A stretch of DNA of 35,808 nucleotides, from assembly GCA_009923745.1 (NCBI GenBank), contig RFSX01000004.1:1-35808 (forward strand), in the 5' to 3' direction. Shown in pieces: positions 4,043 through 30,255 of this stretch. This DNA is from Chitinophagia bacterium (lineage in GTDB: Bacteria; Bacteroidota; Bacteroidia; Chitinophagales; Saprospiraceae). Position 1 is the stretch's first letter. Each line of letters opens with the position of its first letter. Position numbers and translations under genes: made by a program. The notes below the pieces were generated by a model, which saw only the letters and a list, made by a program, of their open reading frames with translations, did not search any database and was not told the origin of the DNA.

Positions 4043-4048
4043 TTGAAT

Positions 4049-4592
4049 ATGCGTTTTCATAAAGAAGGATACCCAACACTGCTATTGGTAATCATTATTG
4101 CAGCGGCTTTAATCTATCTTGGATATAAAAGTCAGATTAGCCTCGTCTATTATCTGACTGGTGCCGTATCCCTGTTTTTACTTATCATAGTTCTCCAGTT
4201 TTTCAGGGACCCTGTACGCCAATTGCCAGAATCCTCTGATTCGCTTGTGTACAGTCCGGCAGATGGGAAAATAGTTGTTATTGAAAAGGTCTTTGAAAAA
4301 GAATATCTAAAGCAGGAGTGCTGGCAGGTTTCCGTATTTATGTCTCCATTGAATGTTCATATAAACAGGAATCCGGTCAATGGAAAAGTGGAGTATACCA
4401 AGTACCATCCAGGTGACTATCTCGTAGCCTGGCATCCAAAATCATCTGAACTCAACGAGAGGTTTACCAGTGTATACACAACACATACAGGTCAAGTCCA
4501 GAGCAGATATATTCCTACCCCTTGATGCAAAAATCAAAGTTGAGATGGACCAGCATGTCAAAAGTCCACTTGATGTAATTGCAGAGCTTTAA
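4049..4592 (+). pseudogene. psd: Phosphatidylserine decarboxylase, broken by an internal out-of-frame deletion
   Basis: Psd converts phosphatidylserine to phosphatidylethanolamine at the inner membrane after cleaving itself at a Gly-Ser bond to form a pyruvoyl group. Frame 1, from ATG 4049, gives two N-terminal membrane helices, YSPADGKIVVIE, VFMSPLNVHINRNPVNG and HPKSSELNERF, all typical. It then runs out of homology near 4498 and stops at 4523-4525. The normal C-terminus appears in another frame from 4497: SRADIFLPLDAKIKV, then MDQHVKSPLDVIAEL, stop at 4590-4592. From my memory of Bacteroidota Psd proteins of about 220-228 residues, the missing stretch is about 36 residues: the RQIAGxxARRIV block through GFIKFG, including the Gly of the cleavage site. 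Neither frame alone can give active enzyme. It follows cdsA by six bases and overlaps the hemH stop codon. Real deletion and assembly error are both possible. Confidence 0.85.
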
Positions 4593-6818: not shown

Positions 6819-7913
6819 ATGAAATACTATATCATCGTCGGCGAACCCTCGGGTGATATATATGGTGCTGCACTTATGCGGGCACTTAAGAAAATCGACA
6901 AGCATGCTCAATTCAGGTTTTGGGGTTCTGGCGAAATGAAGTCTGTAAGTGATACGTGCGATGTATCTATTGAGGAGACATCATTCATGGGACTCGTAGA
7001 AGTTCTGAATAATTTTGGTAAGGTTCTTTTGCTCTTTTCAAAAGCAAAAAAATATATCAGCCAGTATAAGCCGGACTTGCTTATTTTAATTGACTACCCT
7101 GGATTCAATCTGAGAATGGCAAAGTGGGCAAAAAAAAATAAGATACGGGTTGCATATTATATTTCGCCACAAATCTGGGCCTGGAGAAAATACAGATATA
7201 AGGCCATCAGAGATTATACCGATCTGTTTTTCCCAATTCTTCCCTTTGAAAGGAAAATATACAGGGAACTTGATGTACGATTTACTTACTGCGGGCATCC
7301 ATTGCTTGAACGTATTTCGCATAGTCAATCAAAAAAAGAAATTCATAAAATACATACTGTAGGTATATTTCCTGGTAGCCGTCTACAGGAAATACGAAAA
7401 AACATTAGCGTATTATCGAAGTTTGTTAGAGCAAACCCTGCCTATAATTTCAGAGTCTCAGTCATGCCTCATATTGAGCTCAATGAATATGCCCCCCTTT
7501 TGGCTTGTCCAGGAATAAAACAGGAAACGAATACATCTGAGATGGTCAAATCCTGTGATCTTGCTATTGCTTGCAGCGGAACACTAAGTCTGGAACTGGC
7601 CCTGTACAATGTTCCCCAGATCATCATTTACAAGACCAATACTGTCAGTTATATGATCGCCAGGAGAATGGTTAAGATAAAATACATATCCCTGGTGAAT
7701 CTTATCCTGGGTGAAGGCCTTGTAGAGGAACTGATTCAGGATGCGTTCAATTTAAACAAGTTGCAGGATGCTTTTAATAAATTGTCTATCAATGAAAATC
7801 TGAAAAAACAGTACACAGGGTATAAAGAAATGAGAAGCGCGCTGGGCACAAGCAACTGCTCTCAATGCGTAGCCAGGCACATTCACGAATATCTGAAAGG
7901 GCGTCCTACTTAA
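6819..7913 (+). CDS. lpxB: Lipid-A-disaccharide synthase
   Basis: Joins UDP-2,3-diacylglucosamine and lipid X to form the lipid A disaccharide, at the inner face of the cytoplasmic membrane. The 364-residue GT19 protein has the N-terminal VGEPSGD, then FMGLVEVL, IDYPGFN and YYISPQIWAWRKYR. The C-terminal half has FPGSRLQEI, ACSGTLSLELAL and LILGEGLVEELIQ. All are family positions and the length is usual. Its last eight bases overlap the end of topA on the other strand. Confidence 0.96.
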   Translation: MKYYIIVGEPSGDIYGAALMRALKKIDKHAQFRFWGSGEMKSVSDTCDVSIEETSFMGLVEVLNNFGKVLLLFSKAKKYISQYKPDLLILIDYPGFNLRMAKWAKKNKIRVAYYISPQIWAWRKYRYKAIRDYTDLFFPILPFERKIYRELDVRFTYCGHPLLERISHSQSKKEIHKIHTVGIFPGSRLQEIRKNISVLSKFVRANPAYNFRVSVMPHIELNEYAPLLACPGIKQETNTSEMVKSCDLAIACSGTLSLELALYNVPQIIIYKTNTVSYMIARRMVKIKYISLVNLILGEGLVEELIQDAFNLNKLQDAFNKLSINENLKKQYTGYKEMRSALGTSNCSQCVARHIHEYLKGRPT

Positions 7914-9137
7914 TGCCTTTAGCGCCCTGTTCCTTCAAAAGTTTCTTGACTTCTTCTAGCGTAAATTTTTCTTTGGCCTCCTCAGCTGTATATCTTTCAC
8001 CATCATCCTTTTTTTCAATCTTAAAGGATTTTTTCTTGTATCGGATAAAAGGGCCCCATCTCCCATTTTCAAGAGCAATATTTTCCTCTGGCCATTGTGA
8101 AATATAACGATTGGCCTCTTTTTGAATTTTGGCTTCAATCAATTCAAATATTTCCTCCTGGGTTATGGTATCCGGATTTATACGTCTTGGAATATTGATG
8201 TATAGATCATTCCACTTGAGGAAAGGACCAAAACGACCTTTGCCTTTGGTGACTTCGTTCCCTTTATAGCTGGCAACAGGGGCATCCTGTTTCAACTTTT
8301 CCTCTACAAGTTCCTGAGCTCTTTCAAGCGTGAGTTCAAGAGGATCTTCACCTCTGGGAATAGAAACAAATTTTTCCTTGTATTTTATATACGGGCCATA
8401 GCGTCCGGAATTAACAACCAGGTCCTCACCATTATACTGACCTACAGTCAATGGCAACTTGAACAAGTCCATGGCTTCTTCATAGCTGATCGTCTCGATG
8501 GATTGTCCCGCTTTCAGGCTGGCAAACCTTGGCTTTTCGTCTTCGCCTACCTCTTCTCTTGTTCCAATCTGTACAACAGGTCCGAAGCGTGTCATTTGGG
8601 TTAAAACTGTATAGCCGGACTCAGGATCCTTACCAAGGTCACGTCTCCCTTTAACACGAGATGCTTCCTCGATGGTTTTTTCTACGGTTGAGTGAAAAGG
8701 ACCATAAAAATCCTCCAGCATCTCCTTCCAGTTTTCGGCTCCTTTAGCGATTTCATCGAGCTTGTCTTCGATGTCTGCCGTAAAGCTGTACGTCATGATG
8801 TCTTCAAAATGCTCGTCTAGGAAATCAACCACAAGCATCCCAAGGTCAGACGGATACAGGCGGTTTGAGGTGGATCCGGTGATCTCTGTTTCAATTTTAT
8901 CTGTCAATTCACTATTGACCAGAGTTAGAACATGGTACTTTCTTTCAACACCAATTCGACTCTCCTTAGTGACATATCCCCTGCCCTTTTCCATAATCTT
9001 TGTAATGGTCGGCGCGTAGGTGGAAGGTCGGCCAATGCCCAGTTCTTCAAGTTTTTTAACCAAACTGGCTTCTGTATAGCGTGCTGGAGGTCTTGTAAAC
9101 CTCTCTATTGCCTGGATATTATCCAGCTTTCCTGAAA
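7906..9137 (-). pseudogene. topA: DNA topoisomerase I, 3' fragment (gate and C-terminal domains)
   Basis: Second part of the broken topA, in a different frame from the 5' fragment. Homology begins about 9132 with GKLDNIQAIERFTRPPARY and continues with TEASLVKKLEELGIGRP and STYAPTITKIMEKG, which are classic topoisomerase IA positions. After the gate domains come the Bacteroidota C-terminal repeats GRYGPYIKYKEKFVSIPRG, GRFGPFLKWNDLYINIPRR and GRWGPFIRYKKKS, ending in a Lys-rich tail. The frame extends upstream to 9222, but those extra residues are merely the shifted reading of the 5' fragment. No convincing start codon for independent translation is seen. Confidence 0.85.
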
Positions 9138-10298
9138 AATTTCCCCTGTCGTCGTCTGAATGTCTACGGTGGTTTTTTCCAGTTTGGCATCTGCCATTCG
9201 CGAAGCTATGGTTCGCTTCCAAATCAAATCATATAGTTTTTGCATATCCGAATCACCGGATATAGCCGATAATTTTATATCGGTCGGCCTTATAGCTTCG
9301 TGCGCTTCCTGGGCAGATGCATTCTTATTCTTATACTTTCTGACCTGAGCATATTCATCGCCATACTGGCTCTTAATTTCTTCATTGATAGTGCCGAGTG
9401 CCAAATCACTTAAACTGATGGAATCGGTTCTCATATAGGTGATATAACCAGCCTCATAGAGCTTTTGTGCAGCGCTCATGGTCCGGTTTACGGCAAAATA
9501 GAGTTTCCGTGAAGCTTCTTGCTGCAGCGTTGAAGTAGTAAATGGCGCAGCAGGCTTTCTTTTAGCAGGCCTAACATTAATATTATTAATAGTATAATCG
9601 GAAGGCTTCAGGGATTCAAGCAATGCTCGCGCCTCCTCGAATGTTTCAAGGCGCCTAGAAAGTTCTGCCTTTAGCTCGACTTCCCTGCCCTGATCATTCA
9701 TTACCTTGAATAGAGCAAGAACCTTATAAAAAGACCTGGATTCGTGATTGTTTATTTCTCTTTCTCTCTCAACGATCAATTTAACCGCAACGGACTGCAC
9801 CCTGCCCGCAGACAATTTACCTTTTATCTTTCTCCACAGGATTTCCGACAACTCAAAGCCTACGAGTCTGTCAAGAATTCTTCTCGCCTGTTGAGCATTA
9901 ACAAGGTTTTTATCTACATGCCTGGGATTCATGACCGCTTTCTCAATAGCCGGTTTTGTAATCTCCCTGAATACTATGCGCTTGGTAGTATCTGCATCAA
10001 GGCCAAGCACTTCACACAAATGCCATGAGATGGCTTCTCCTTCACGATCCTCATCCGTCGCGAGCCACACTTCAGCGGCTTGCTTGGCAGAGTCTTTTAG
10101 TTCCTTGACAACTCTCTTCTTTTCATCAGACACCACATATTTCGGCTCAAAACCATTCTCCTTATCAATACCTTTCGCTCCCTTATCAAGGTCACGAATA
10201 TGGCCATACGATGACTTGACTATGAAATCATTGCCTAGATATTTATTGATTGTTTTGGCCTTGGCCGGAGACTCTACTATGAGTAATTTCTTTCCCAT
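9105..10298 (-). pseudogene. topA: DNA topoisomerase I, 5' fragment (Toprim and catalytic domains)
   Basis: TopA relaxes negative supercoils and is normally essential. This fragment has the start MGKKLLIVESPAKAKTINKY, the Toprim metal site TDEDREGE (Asp82, Asp84, Glu86) and the catalytic tyrosine Tyr288 in ITYMRTDS. After MADAKLEKTTVDIQTTTGEIF (about 9135) it leaves the family pattern and stops at 9105-9107. From memory of Bacteroidota TopA, about 40 residues should follow: a GEVIxFDGFLKVYLE-like strand, an acidic linker and an LPxLxxGQ segment. These are absent from all frames here; the sequence jumps directly to the pre-gate segment in the frame of the 3' fragment. This is therefore a deletion plus a frame change, not a simple frameshift. 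Confidence 0.87.
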
Positions 10299-12281: not shown

Positions 12282-15200
12282 ATGCGCTTAAGAGATTTAT
12301 TGTTGTGTTCAGCCCTGGTGGTCCTGGCATCCTGTAGACAGGAGAAGCTGGATAAGCCGGCCCAGTCCGGGCAGGTTTTTGAATTATTGATTCCATCAAA
12401 AACAGGTATCAGTTTCAGGAACGATATCGTGGAAGACAAAAACCTAAACATATACACCTATGGCTATTTGTACAACGGCAGTGGATCGGCCATAGGTGAT
12501 ATCAACAACGACGGATTACCTGATCTATATTTCAGCTCTACCCAGGGACAGGACAAACTGTATCTCAACAAAGGCAATTTTGAATTTGAAGATATATCCA
12601 CTAGCTCAGGAATAAATAAATACTCGGGATATAAGACAGGTGTCAATATGATCGACATAAACCAGGACGGGTGGTTAGACATTTATGTTTGTCGTGATGG
12701 CTGGTCCCAAAATCCTGAGGATTTGCGCAATCTTCTATTTATCAATCAAAAAGACGGCAGCTTCATTGAAAAAGCCGCCGAATACGGCATAGACAGTGCG
12801 GATCGCAGTGTGCAGGCAGCTTTCTTCGACTATGACAAGGATGGAGACCTCGATTTATTTCTGGCCAATCAACCGGGGGTATTCAATATTCCTATTGGTC
12901 AGATGATTCAATTATTTGCCAATCCACGTATTGAAAAATCAGATAGATTGCTGAGAAACGATAGCGGACGGTTTACAGATGTTACCATTGAAGCGGGTAT
13001 CTTAAATTTCACCTATGGCCTGGGCCTTGTTACGGCAGATTTCAATGATGATGGCTGGACAGATATTTATGTAACCAGCGATTTTGAACCCCGCGATGTG
13101 TATTATGTCAATCAGAAAGACGGCAGCTTTCGCGAATCCCTGATGGATCACTTCAACCATTGCAGCTATTTTTCAATGGGTGTCGATTACACGGACATAA
13201 ACAACGACGGTCACCTCGACCTTTTTGTCGGAGAGATGCTGGCAGAAGACAATCTGAGACAGAAAACCAATATGGCTCCGATGAATATGCAACGCTTTGC
13301 CAATATGGCATCAAACGGCATGTATTTTCAATATATGAGAAATAGCTTCAGCATTAATAATGGTCATGGCGACTTCTCAGATATTGCACCTTATGCGGGT
13401 ATTGATAAATCGGACTGGAGCTGGGCTTCAGTTTTTGGAGACTATGATAATGATGGAGATGACGACCTGCTGGTGGTCAATGGTTATTTGAGAGACACTC
13501 AGGATAAGGATACTAGCAAAAAAGCCAATAAGCTGGCAAAAGAAACGGATAACAGACTCACATTTGATCAAATCAGTCAGCTTCTCAAGAGCACACCCCT
13601 GAAAAACTATGCTTTTAGAAATGACGGAAAATCAAAATTTTCAAAAGTTTCTGGTAATTGGGGTTTTAATCATACGGGTTTTTCGGACGGTATGTCCATA
13701 GGTGATCTTGATATGGATGGTGACCTAGATGTTGTTGTTAATAACATAAATGACGTGGCAACCGTTTACCGCAACAATACCAATACGGACAACTACATCG
13801 CCTTTACATTGAAAGGCCCATCTGGAAATCCCGGAGGACTTAACACCATACTGGAATTGCAAACGACAAAGGGCCTTAGATACAAGGAATTTCATACAGT
13901 CAGAGGCTTCCAATCGGCGATGCATCCTATAATTCACTTTGGCCTCGATCAAGATGAACTTCCGCAGAGTTTGTCTGTGGAATGGGCTGATGGCTCAAAA
14001 AAAACAATTGGAGATATAAAGGCCGGTAGATACCAGGAAATCACTTACGAGGGAAGTTCAAAAACTTTTGCTGAAAAAGAAATTCTGCCCTTCCAGCATG
14101 CAGATCTCTTTAATTATCAGCATAATGAGAATTTCAATGATGATTATGCCATCCAGGTTCTCCTACCCCACTTACTATCCCAATATGGACCGGCGTTAGC
14201 AAAATCTGACATCAACAAAGATGGCAGAGAAGATATTTTTGTTGGTGGAGCCGCAGGACAATCCTCCGGGCTTTATGTTCAAAATGCTGATGGTACATTT
14301 AGTTTAATGAATTCAAATGTCTGGGAGCAAGATGCAGGCTATGAAGATGTTATCGCGTACTTCTTTGATTACGATAATGATGGATTCGAGGACTTGATTG
14401 TAGGTTCAGGGAGTTATGAATTTGGGCCTGAAAGTCCCTTTAACACATGTAGACTTTACCAGAATAATGGCCGGGGTGAGTTTATAAAAAAGAACATACT
14501 ACCTACAATAAATACCGCCTGTGGCACCATTTCAGGAGGAGATTACGATGCTGATGGTGACATCGACTTATTCATTGGCTCTCGCTTCGTATTTGGCAAA
14601 TACCCTATGGCACCAAGAGCATACATTCTTCGTAATGATGGTCCTGCCTTCACAGATGTGACAAAGGACCTGTGTCCTGAGCTGTTTGATCATGCTGGAA
14701 TGTATACGCATTCCGAATGGATAGATATTGATGAGGACAATCAATTAGATCTCATTCTGGCAGGAGAATGGACGGAAGTGGAGCTTTTACTCAACAAAAA
14801 AGACAGATTTGAAAAAACACGCCTTAATGCTGATTCTGGCATGAGGGGATGGTGGAATGTCGTCAGGTCTGCAGATTTTGATGGAGATGGGCTCACCGAT
14901 ATTTTTGTGGGCAACCTTGGAGAAAATTATAAATACAAAGCCAGCAAGGAAGAGCCTTTTGAAGTTTATAGCGGCGACTTCAATAATGACGGTAAGTATG
15001 ATATTGTCCTGGGCTATTACAATGATAACACCATATACCCTGTACGGGGCTTTCAGTGTTCTTCAGAACAAATTCCGGATCTTAAAAATGAAATTTCTAG
15101 TTACGCAGAATTCGGAGCTTCCAATCTTTACAGCATCTATGGTGAATCCATTAAAACCGCGCTCAATTACAAAGCGGATAATTTCTCTTCTGGTATATTT

Positions 15201-24141: not shown

Positions 24142-24214
24142 ACAGTCTACAGAAAGCGACTCTAGCAGATCCTTTGAATTGACAAGATTAATATCACAAA
24201 ACATTAAGCCTGTC

Positions 24215-24540
24215 CTACAGAATCAGAAAGCTCCTGATTCCAGCCCGTTTTGGGCTTTCGTCGCTTGGCTCATCTTTAATCGCTTCATAAGCTAATTTTA
24301 TGACAGACCATTGAGGTATAGAAGGGTAATTTCTCTTGAACAAGCCTGGCTTGGTGTACTTGATTTCCCCGTTAGAGTATTCAACAAATACCTTTTGTTT
24401 GTCAGGCTAGCTATACCGATGGCCCTTTGAGCAGTGCCAAAGTGTTAATTACGGTATTGTAAACTGAAATGTTATAATTGCCTGGTATTTGTGCGGAAAC
24501 AGATGAAGAAAAAAATCAATATAAAAAGATTGCTTTGCAT
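24215..24540 (-). pseudogene. Decayed gene for a small secreted protein
   Basis: The 534-bp gap 24142-24675 has no intact gene, but the minus strand looks like a broken one. ATG 24540-24538 opens a signal peptide (MQSNLFILIF); removing one base from the A7 tract at 24519-24525 gives SSSVSAQIPGNYNISVYNTV and INTLALLKGPSV, then stop. In another frame, from about 24407 to the TAG at 24217-24215, a 60-odd-codon open stretch reads KVFVEYSNGEIKYTKPGLFK, NYPSIPQWSVIKLAYEAIKDE and so on. Together they would make a periplasmic protein of about 105 residues. The family is not recognised; at least two lesions are needed to explain it. The remainder of the gap shows only the palindrome listed separately. 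Confidence 0.45.
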
Positions 24541-27744: not shown

Positions 27745-30255
27745 ATGAACTTCAATTTTACTCGAATTGGTCTTTTGATGACCTTGGTTTTTGCCATAGG
27801 CAGCGTGCAAGCACAGACTGTGAATGCCCTGCGCATAGATTCCCCCGCTGAGGTGGCTGGTGAATATAGAATATCCCTGGCACAAGACTGGGGACAGCAA
27901 CTTAGCTCAGAGTTGGCTGGTACCGGTACTTTTGTAAATGATGGTGAAGGAACCACTACGGATGCCTGTGATGGCACAATAGGAAATATAACGGGAAAAA
28001 TAGCTTTTATCGACAGGGGTTCTTGTGAATTCGGTCTCAAAGCTTTGAACGCTGAAAATGCGGGAGCTATAGCTGTAGTAATTTGTAATAATGTTGATGA
28101 TGGTACAGCACCTGGACTTGGAGCCGGTGCAGATGGTGACCAGGTAAGCATTCCGGTAGCCGGTATGACCTTCCAGGATTGCCAGACGATCAGAACTGTA
28201 GCTGAAACTATGGACGTAGAAGCAGTATTCACTTTCGCAGATTGCTTGACGCCTACTTATGGTCCTGATGTTGTTTGGGGTAATGTTCCTGGACAGGGAG
28301 ATTTTGAAGATGGTCTTAATGACTGGATCGTTGCCTGCCAGGGTGATACCTGCTGGGGATGGTCATCAGATGAGACAGTGCTTCAAAATGGATCTTTTGC
28401 AACAGGTGTTGGTATCGCCGTTCCTACTATCTGTAACGGATCTATGGTTTTTGACTCAGACCGTCACGACAACTTAGGTGGTGGAGCTGGCGCAATCGGT
28501 ACTGGTGAATGTGTCGCTCCTTGTGAGGGATCACTTATCAGCCCAACAATTGACCTTACTCAATATGATCTAGATGGTCTTTTTGTTGAATTTGATCAGC
28601 AAACGCGTCAATTTCAATCAACTTATCAGTTGATCCTGAGTAAAAATGGTGGTGTTACATGGCCTGACACTATTGACCTGAATACAGACCTAGAGGTTAA
28701 TTCACCGCACGTAGCAAATACTCAAAGAATACCAGCTGAAGGATATCAAGATGCTCAGAGTATTACCATGCAATTCAGATATGTGGGTAATTACTACTAC
28801 TGGGTTATTGATGATGTAAGACTGGTAAACGAAGCTACTGCAGATATGAACCTGCGTACTGACTTCTTTGCAGTCGCACCTACTTACAGAACACCTGTAA
28901 ACCAGGCTGCTCCAATGCCTTTCCTTATTGACATTGACAACCTTGGTAACATCCCTGCAGAGGATGTAGCTGTAACAGTTGAAATTTTCAATGAATTGGG
29001 TGAGACTGTATTTGAATCAACCAATACAAATTATGCTGTTCAGCCTCCGGGAGAATTCCTAAACGAGAACAGCGTATTCCCTGAAACTTTTACGCCGACA
29101 GAAGTTGGTCCTTACCAGGGACGATATATGATCAGCACATCATCGGGAGATAACAACCCTGACAATGATGCGGTAGACTTTTTCTTTGAAGTGACAGAAA
29201 ACATTCTTTCACCACTTCCGCCGGAGGAAGATTTTGCTAATCCTCTAGCTGGTATATTTAGTGGAGCCCGATTTATTAACCCAACCGATCAGTTCTTTGT
29301 ATCTAACTACGCAACAGGTTATATATTCTACTTGCCAAATGGTGATAATCACACTTTAAGCAATGTTAGATTTGGTATTCATGAATTACCTGTGGAAACA
29401 CAAGCCACTGTGGATGTATATCTCTACCAATGGTTATACCGGGATGAAGACAACTCAGGAAACTTTGTTGTATCTCCTGATGACACAGAACTAATCGGTG
29501 TTAATACACAGCAGATCCTGACTTTTGGAGGTGCTGTCAGGGTTGGTACTTCTCAAGTACCTGATATCCGTAAAATAGACATACCTATGGGACAAGCCGG
29601 CCCGGATGGTTTCCCTCTATTGGATAACAATAACAACCCGGTTCCGATTGATCTTGCCAACAACAGAAACTATGTAATGGTCATTGCTTGTAGGTCAGGT
29701 GATGGGTTACCACTTAACCTTATAGGAACTAACCCGACGGCAAACATACAGACACGTTCATTCCTTCACGGTGCAACGAACCTGGCATACGATTCACTGG
29801 GCCTTGACATCGTTGTAGGTGGATTCCTGGAAGATATCACTTCAGACACAGGACCTACGCAAATGCTAGATTTCGAAATCGATTCGCAGCTTACAGGAGC
29901 AGGAGGAACAGGTAACTTTGGTGTCCTGTATGATTTCAGGGTATTGCTTGCAGAAATGACCATTGTGGAGAAAACATCAAGCACAGAAGACCTGAACCTG
30001 GTTCAGAATATAGATGTTTATCCTAACCCTGTTTCTGACTTTGTTTTTGTAGACCTGAAACTTGATGAAATGTCTGAGCGTGTAAATGTTGAACTCGTTA
30101 ATTCGAGAGGACAAAGAGTACTTTCTCAGAACTTCAACAATGTTTTCAAGCAAAGGCTTGAAGTAAATGTCAGTGATATAAGCAATGGCATATACATGAT
30201 GAATGTTAGAACTGATGCCGGTTTAAGTGCAAAGAAACTGGTTATCCAGCATTAA
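27745..30255 (+). CDS. Secreted protein with PA domain and type IX secretion C-terminal signal
   Basis: An 836-residue exported protein. Signal peptide MNFNFTRIGLLMTLVFAIGS, then VQAQ; a protease-associated (PA) domain (about 40-165) with KIAFIDRGSCEFGLKALNAE and IPVAGMTFQDC; a jelly-roll/MAM-like region (about 180-365, YYYWVIDDVRLVNE); a CARDB-like segment (ADMNLRTDFF onward); and a C-terminal type A sorting domain with VYPNPVSDFVFVDL and ISNGIYMMNVRTD, ending AKKLVIQH. No peptidase motif is visible, so it may be an adhesin or an accessory surface protein. The frame is open 39 codons upstream, but only ATG 27745 gives a signal peptide. A strong terminator follows. Confidence 0.9.
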   Translation: MNFNFTRIGLLMTLVFAIGSVQAQTVNALRIDSPAEVAGEYRISLAQDWGQQLSSELAGTGTFVNDGEGTTTDACDGTIGNITGKIAFIDRGSCEFGLKALNAENAGAIAVVICNNVDDGTAPGLGAGADGDQVSIPVAGMTFQDCQTIRTVAETMDVEAVFTFADCLTPTYGPDVVWGNVPGQGDFEDGLNDWIVACQGDTCWGWSSDETVLQNGSFATGVGIAVPTICNGSMVFDSDRHDNLGGGAGAIGTGECVAPCEGSLISPTIDLTQYDLDGLFVEFDQQTRQFQSTYQLILSKNGGVTWPDTIDLNTDLEVNSPHVANTQRIPAEGYQDAQSITMQFRYVGNYYYWVIDDVRLVNEATADMNLRTDFFAVAPTYRTPVNQAAPMPFLIDIDNLGNIPAEDVAVTVEIFNELGETVFESTNTNYAVQPPGEFLNENSVFPETFTPTEVGPYQGRYMISTSSGDNNPDNDAVDFFFEVTENILSPLPPEEDFANPLAGIFSGARFINPTDQFFVSNYATGYIFYLPNGDNHTLSNVRFGIHELPVETQATVDVYLYQWLYRDEDNSGNFVVSPDDTELIGVNTQQILTFGGAVRVGTSQVPDIRKIDIPMGQAGPDGFPLLDNNNNPVPIDLANNRNYVMVIACRSGDGLPLNLIGTNPTANIQTRSFLHGATNLAYDSLGLDIVVGGFLEDITSDTGPTQMLDFEIDSQLTGAGGTGNFGVLYDFRVLLAEMTIVEKTSSTEDLNLVQNIDVYPNPVSDFVFVDLKLDEMSERVNVELVNSRGQRVLSQNFNNVFKQRLEVNVSDISNGIYMMNVRTDAGLSAKKLVIQH

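Follow-up and report, generated by a model that had tools for sequence, protein, structure and literature searches.

The broken topA gene found in the window (the whole stretch of DNA analysed, 35,808 bases, contig C209 of a draft assembly of 1.77 Mb in 285 contigs with a completeness of 79.5%) is probably an ordinary bacterial topA from which a local assembly or chimeric-read fault has removed ~118 nt in the draft contig, a reading drawn from sequence comparison. Two out-of-frame losses of ~110 nt stand ~4.6 kb apart in core genes, topA and psd, both otherwise pristine, and faults in the contig are the easiest explanation. The organism itself most likely retains the ~118 nt of topA that are missing here.

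The break in topA

The gene (minus strand, 10298 to 7906) has lpxB and a DUF6794 gene as its neighbours and falls into two parts in different frames (Table 1). The original prediction had placed an out-of-frame internal deletion of about 40 codons at 9100–9145, which is correct; the break itself can be narrowed to 9126–9132, and 39–41 codons are lost, net 1 mod 3. In a profile search part A covers Topoisom_bac positions 2–269 of 411, and part B resumes from position 307 and continues into the Toprim_C_rpt repeats. Part A alone scores 488.9 bits against TIGR01051, above the curated cut-off of 456.4, its residues 5–113 match PF01751 (Toprim), and its translation contains YMRTDS, the catalytic-tyrosine motif. 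The two parts thus have the Toprim domain, the catalytic region and the C-terminal repeats of bacterial TopA (TIGR01051, PF01131/PF01751/PF13368) in conserved form, but a single continuous frame across the four core domains is replaced by two frames, with PF01131 positions 270–306 absent and 39–41 codons gone between positions 269 and 307.

Table 1. Positions of the topA, psd and Wza-like features in the window
Feature	Position	Strand	Description
topA part A	9105..10298	-	397 aa ORF; Toprim and catalytic part of Topoisom_bac; 6 out-of-frame codons, then stop, at its end
topA deletion junction	9126..9132	-	118–124 nt (net) shorter than in 12 congeneric topA genes; edge uncertain to within a few nt
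topA part B	7906..9126	-	other frame; remaining Topoisom_bac and Toprim_C_rpt repeats
Wza-like SLBB/Poly_export remnant	24168..24406	-	residues 821–900 only of 901 aa (G008), in two frames
psd (phosphatidylserine decarboxylase) 5' part	4043..4525	+	160-codon frame; profile positions 4–132 of 198
psd 3' end	4485..4589	+	other frame; last 35 codons, after net 107-nt loss

On the gene strand the junction reads TTTTTCAGG-AAAGC-TGGATAATATCC, with AAAGC at 9130..9126. The missing segment consists of GEVLKFDGFLKVY, the acidic linker and ILPPLxxGQ (~39–41 codons), so that the strand, linker and motif described as absent in the original prediction are indeed gone. A predicted structure of an intact relative (L034) has strands at 387–397, 400–405 and part of 428–440 in or at this segment, although the model is poor (mean pLDDT 59.5, pTM 0.32) and was taken as a hint only. 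The open reading frame of part B extends over 7906–9222 (minus strand, 438 aa), opening at a TTG at 9222, upstream of the junction; the next start codons are a TTG at 9063 and then an ATG at 8994, and no ATG stands close to the junction.

DNA alignment with the 12 congeneric genes gives a net loss in the window of 118 nt for eight, 121 nt for three and 124 nt for one, and tblastn with the relatives' ORFs likewise returns 118–124 nt for every one of the 12 topA ORFs across the break. Over 29 aligned relatives the gap measures 115–139 nt, is always 1 mod 3, and is the sole large gap opposite the window. The remaining gaps are all multiples of three in the 12 congeneric genes, and the 5- or 7-nt gap pieces seen toward the topA 3' end in a few distant relatives look like an effect of how the alignment was placed. 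In each of the 29 relatives topA is one continuous frame with a stop at 773–876 codons. A full-length TopA frame (836–883 codons) is present in 12 of 13 genus mates, with only a distant paralogue in G007, and part A is 68–78% identical to congeneric TopA (74% in genus mate G010).

Both parts are under the same constraint as intact genes. Where all other aligned sequences share one residue, part A differs at 1 of 134 sites and part B at 0 of 55; for residues invariant in the genus the figures are 2 of 203 and 3 of 184, and 12 genus mates treated alike differ at 0–5 and 0–8. The claim that the gene is not in old decay is therefore right for topA, an old pseudogene can be rejected, and the break is either recent or not real. 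The single universally conserved residue that part A alters is Q367R, ~24 codons ahead of the junction. L009, among the 12 genus mates tested, likewise breaks one such residue, and nothing is built on Q367R. All, or nearly all, universally invariant residues of part A are retained by 28 of the 29 aligned relatives.

Two further candidates were rejected. Relocation of the missing segment elsewhere is contradicted by a search of the own genome with a relative's whole TopA, which matched only parts A and B, and programmed frameshifting fails because recoding is unable to supply 39–41 absent codons. A second type IA gene of ~790–802 codons is present in 4 of 13 genus mates; the search for a second topA or topB that the original prediction had proposed found only the broken topA copy in the own 79.5%-complete assembly. 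Of 198 genomes of the order, at least 188 have a topA match at E 1e-60, and 16 genomes whose matches were multiple or weaker were inspected. One other draft genome of the order (G062:C54 25977–28273, L176 and L177) has an in-contig topA frame change at about residue 216 without a large loss, so a broken topA is not unique among draft genomes.

Other lesions on the contig

The original prediction treated the topA lesion as singular, which does not hold. Against each of the eight relatives compared, the psd gene on the same contig is 107 nt (net) short, out of frame, and this second deletion of similar size points to a fault of the whole contig more than to something exceptional in topA. The lost psd stretch runs IRQIAGALARRIV...FIKFG and adjoins the serine converted to the pyruvoyl group. 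The own genome has a single psd copy, in which only profile positions 4–132 of 198 are matched, and a psd match lies in a frame of 217–238 codons in 12 of 13 genus mates (none in G011).

A third broken gene is the Wza-like remnant, whose counterpart at the same place is nearly full length in four genus mates and present in one more at a contig edge. The remnant looks like a real gene loss, which would mean that true deletions do occur in the lineage or on the contig. The frame-break comparison within the window reaches position 30252, beyond which there were no relatives' ORFs to compare, and the other window genes with relatives up to that point (168 relative ORFs used) had no frame break.

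The frequency of such lesions elsewhere in the genome was assessed with 1,122 ORFs from 1.58 Mb of G008, compared with the window and with 40 stretches of 36 other own contigs (334 kb, 12.5 kb of it N). Ninety-three of these ORFs were usable, at 22 places within the window and 68 outside it. Outside the window a frame break was found at 1 of 68 gene places (net 2 nt, near the N-terminus) and a loss of ~110-nt size at 0 of 68, whereas the 22 places of the window include two frame breaks, psd and the Wza-like remnant. The topA gene was outside the 22-place set, as the G008 gene had been cut by the choice of stretches, and was added afterwards to make 23. With it the contrast is 3 of 23 against 1 of 68 (Fisher p 0.048), a value that flatters the contrast as topA had been picked beforehand, and with the same proviso losses of more than 100 nt in otherwise whole genes number 2 of 23 against 0 of 68 (Fisher p 0.062). 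The clustering of lesions on the window contig is therefore statistically marginal. The one break outside the window is a possible frame break in L103 (own contig C80) at 14129–14209, by the N-terminus of a 511-codon G008 gene.

By its composition and gene order the contig looks native to the assembly. Mis-binning was rejected on a tetranucleotide correlation of 0.991 with the pooled other contigs of the genome (G000), on gene order matching that of genus mates, and on a GC content of 0.407 against a median of 0.413, the GC range for own-genome contigs taking in contigs that read N. As a separate observation, 1.77 Mb at 79.5% completeness suggests a genome of ~2.2 Mb, and the 13 genus mates are assembled at 2.8–4.5 Mb; the genome may thus be smaller than those of its genus relatives.

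Artefact or deletion

The break was probably made in the data rather than in the cell. Two topA points ~118 nt apart would have been joined by a read that was chimeric or of low coverage, or by a gap closed in error, and the same kind of faulty join at ~107 nt would have occurred in psd. The similar psd lesion and the third broken gene on the same contig favour such a fault, but joining at 2–5 nt of shared sequence requires a read or template spanning the junction, and thus some molecule may really carry it. Spurious pseudogenes arising from low read coverage are documented in isolate genomes, in a study that left MAGs unassessed (PMC11017572). As with topA, the genes affected there belong to draft genomes and are conserved apart from the break in frame; they are counted as frameshifts and internal stops, and deletions of ~110 nt, as in topA and psd, are not described in the sections consulted.

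The original prediction had also offered a collapse of the assembly across the linker, which is acidic and of low complexity, and the linker does lie within the missing segment. The ends of the deletion, however, fall outside it, as the loss includes the strand before the linker and the LPPL motif after it, and the net length lost is 1 mod 3 rather than a multiple of three. In the segments of the 12 congeneric genes, which stand in for the window's own, the two deletion ends share words of at most 9 nt, direct repeats near the deletion spacing reach 7 nt and repeats inside the segment 10 nt, with none longer in or across it; the collapse is thus highly improbable. In the window itself the junction suggests that 4–5 nt of shared sequence (AAAGC) could have been present at the ends, as judged from a contig that lacks the lost letters.

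Separate translation of parts A and B, followed by their assembly into a functional topoisomerase, might be entertained given that both parts are conserved and that a split reverse gyrase is known from Nanoarchaeum. A natural split retains its residues, though, and here 39–41 codons of domain II strands and linker are lost, part B is without an ATG start by the junction, and topA is continuous in every aligned relative; among the papers listed by a literature search none describes a bacterial topA that is split in nature. Judged on these comparisons, such an arrangement would have a next to negligible probability.

A real and very recent deletion, fixed in the sampled strain or carried by a sub-population, would leave topA non-functional, and growth would then be transient or would rely on compensatory changes of gyrase or topoisomerase IV. 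The clean local junction, the conserved flanks and the preserved gene order are all consistent with it, as is the true-looking remnant of the neighbouring Wza-like gene, and E. coli and B. subtilis strains null for topA show that loss of the gene is survivable, though only with compensatory changes (PMC7140829). Those are laboratory mutants with known suppressors, unlike the natural bin analysed here, and topA nulls have proved unobtainable where topoisomerase IV is absent (PMC10969213). The known backups were not found in the own 79.5%-complete assembly, neither topB nor parC, and it has one gyrA/parC-type gene against two in 11 of 13 genus mates, a weak contrast with about one-fifth of the genome missing. 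Moreover, psd has the same kind of lesion, such that two core functions would have been lost together, and the retention of topA in the genus and of nearly all invariant part A residues among the relatives also argues against such a deletion. A genuine deletion is accordingly regarded as unlikely, and a contig fault is preferred.

Implications

If the fault is in the contig, the practical consequence concerns the reading of an essential gene that turns up broken in a genome bin: the neighbours on the contig deserve to be checked, as here, where a second core gene proved to have a similar gap. The biological alternative, a Saprospiraceae lineage with disrupted topA and psd, no functional topoisomerase I, topB and parC not found, and some form of compensation, is quite improbable. 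Were it real, a bacterium that lives in nature with neither a functioning topoisomerase I nor its usual backups would provide a test of alternative means of controlling supercoiling and R-loops.
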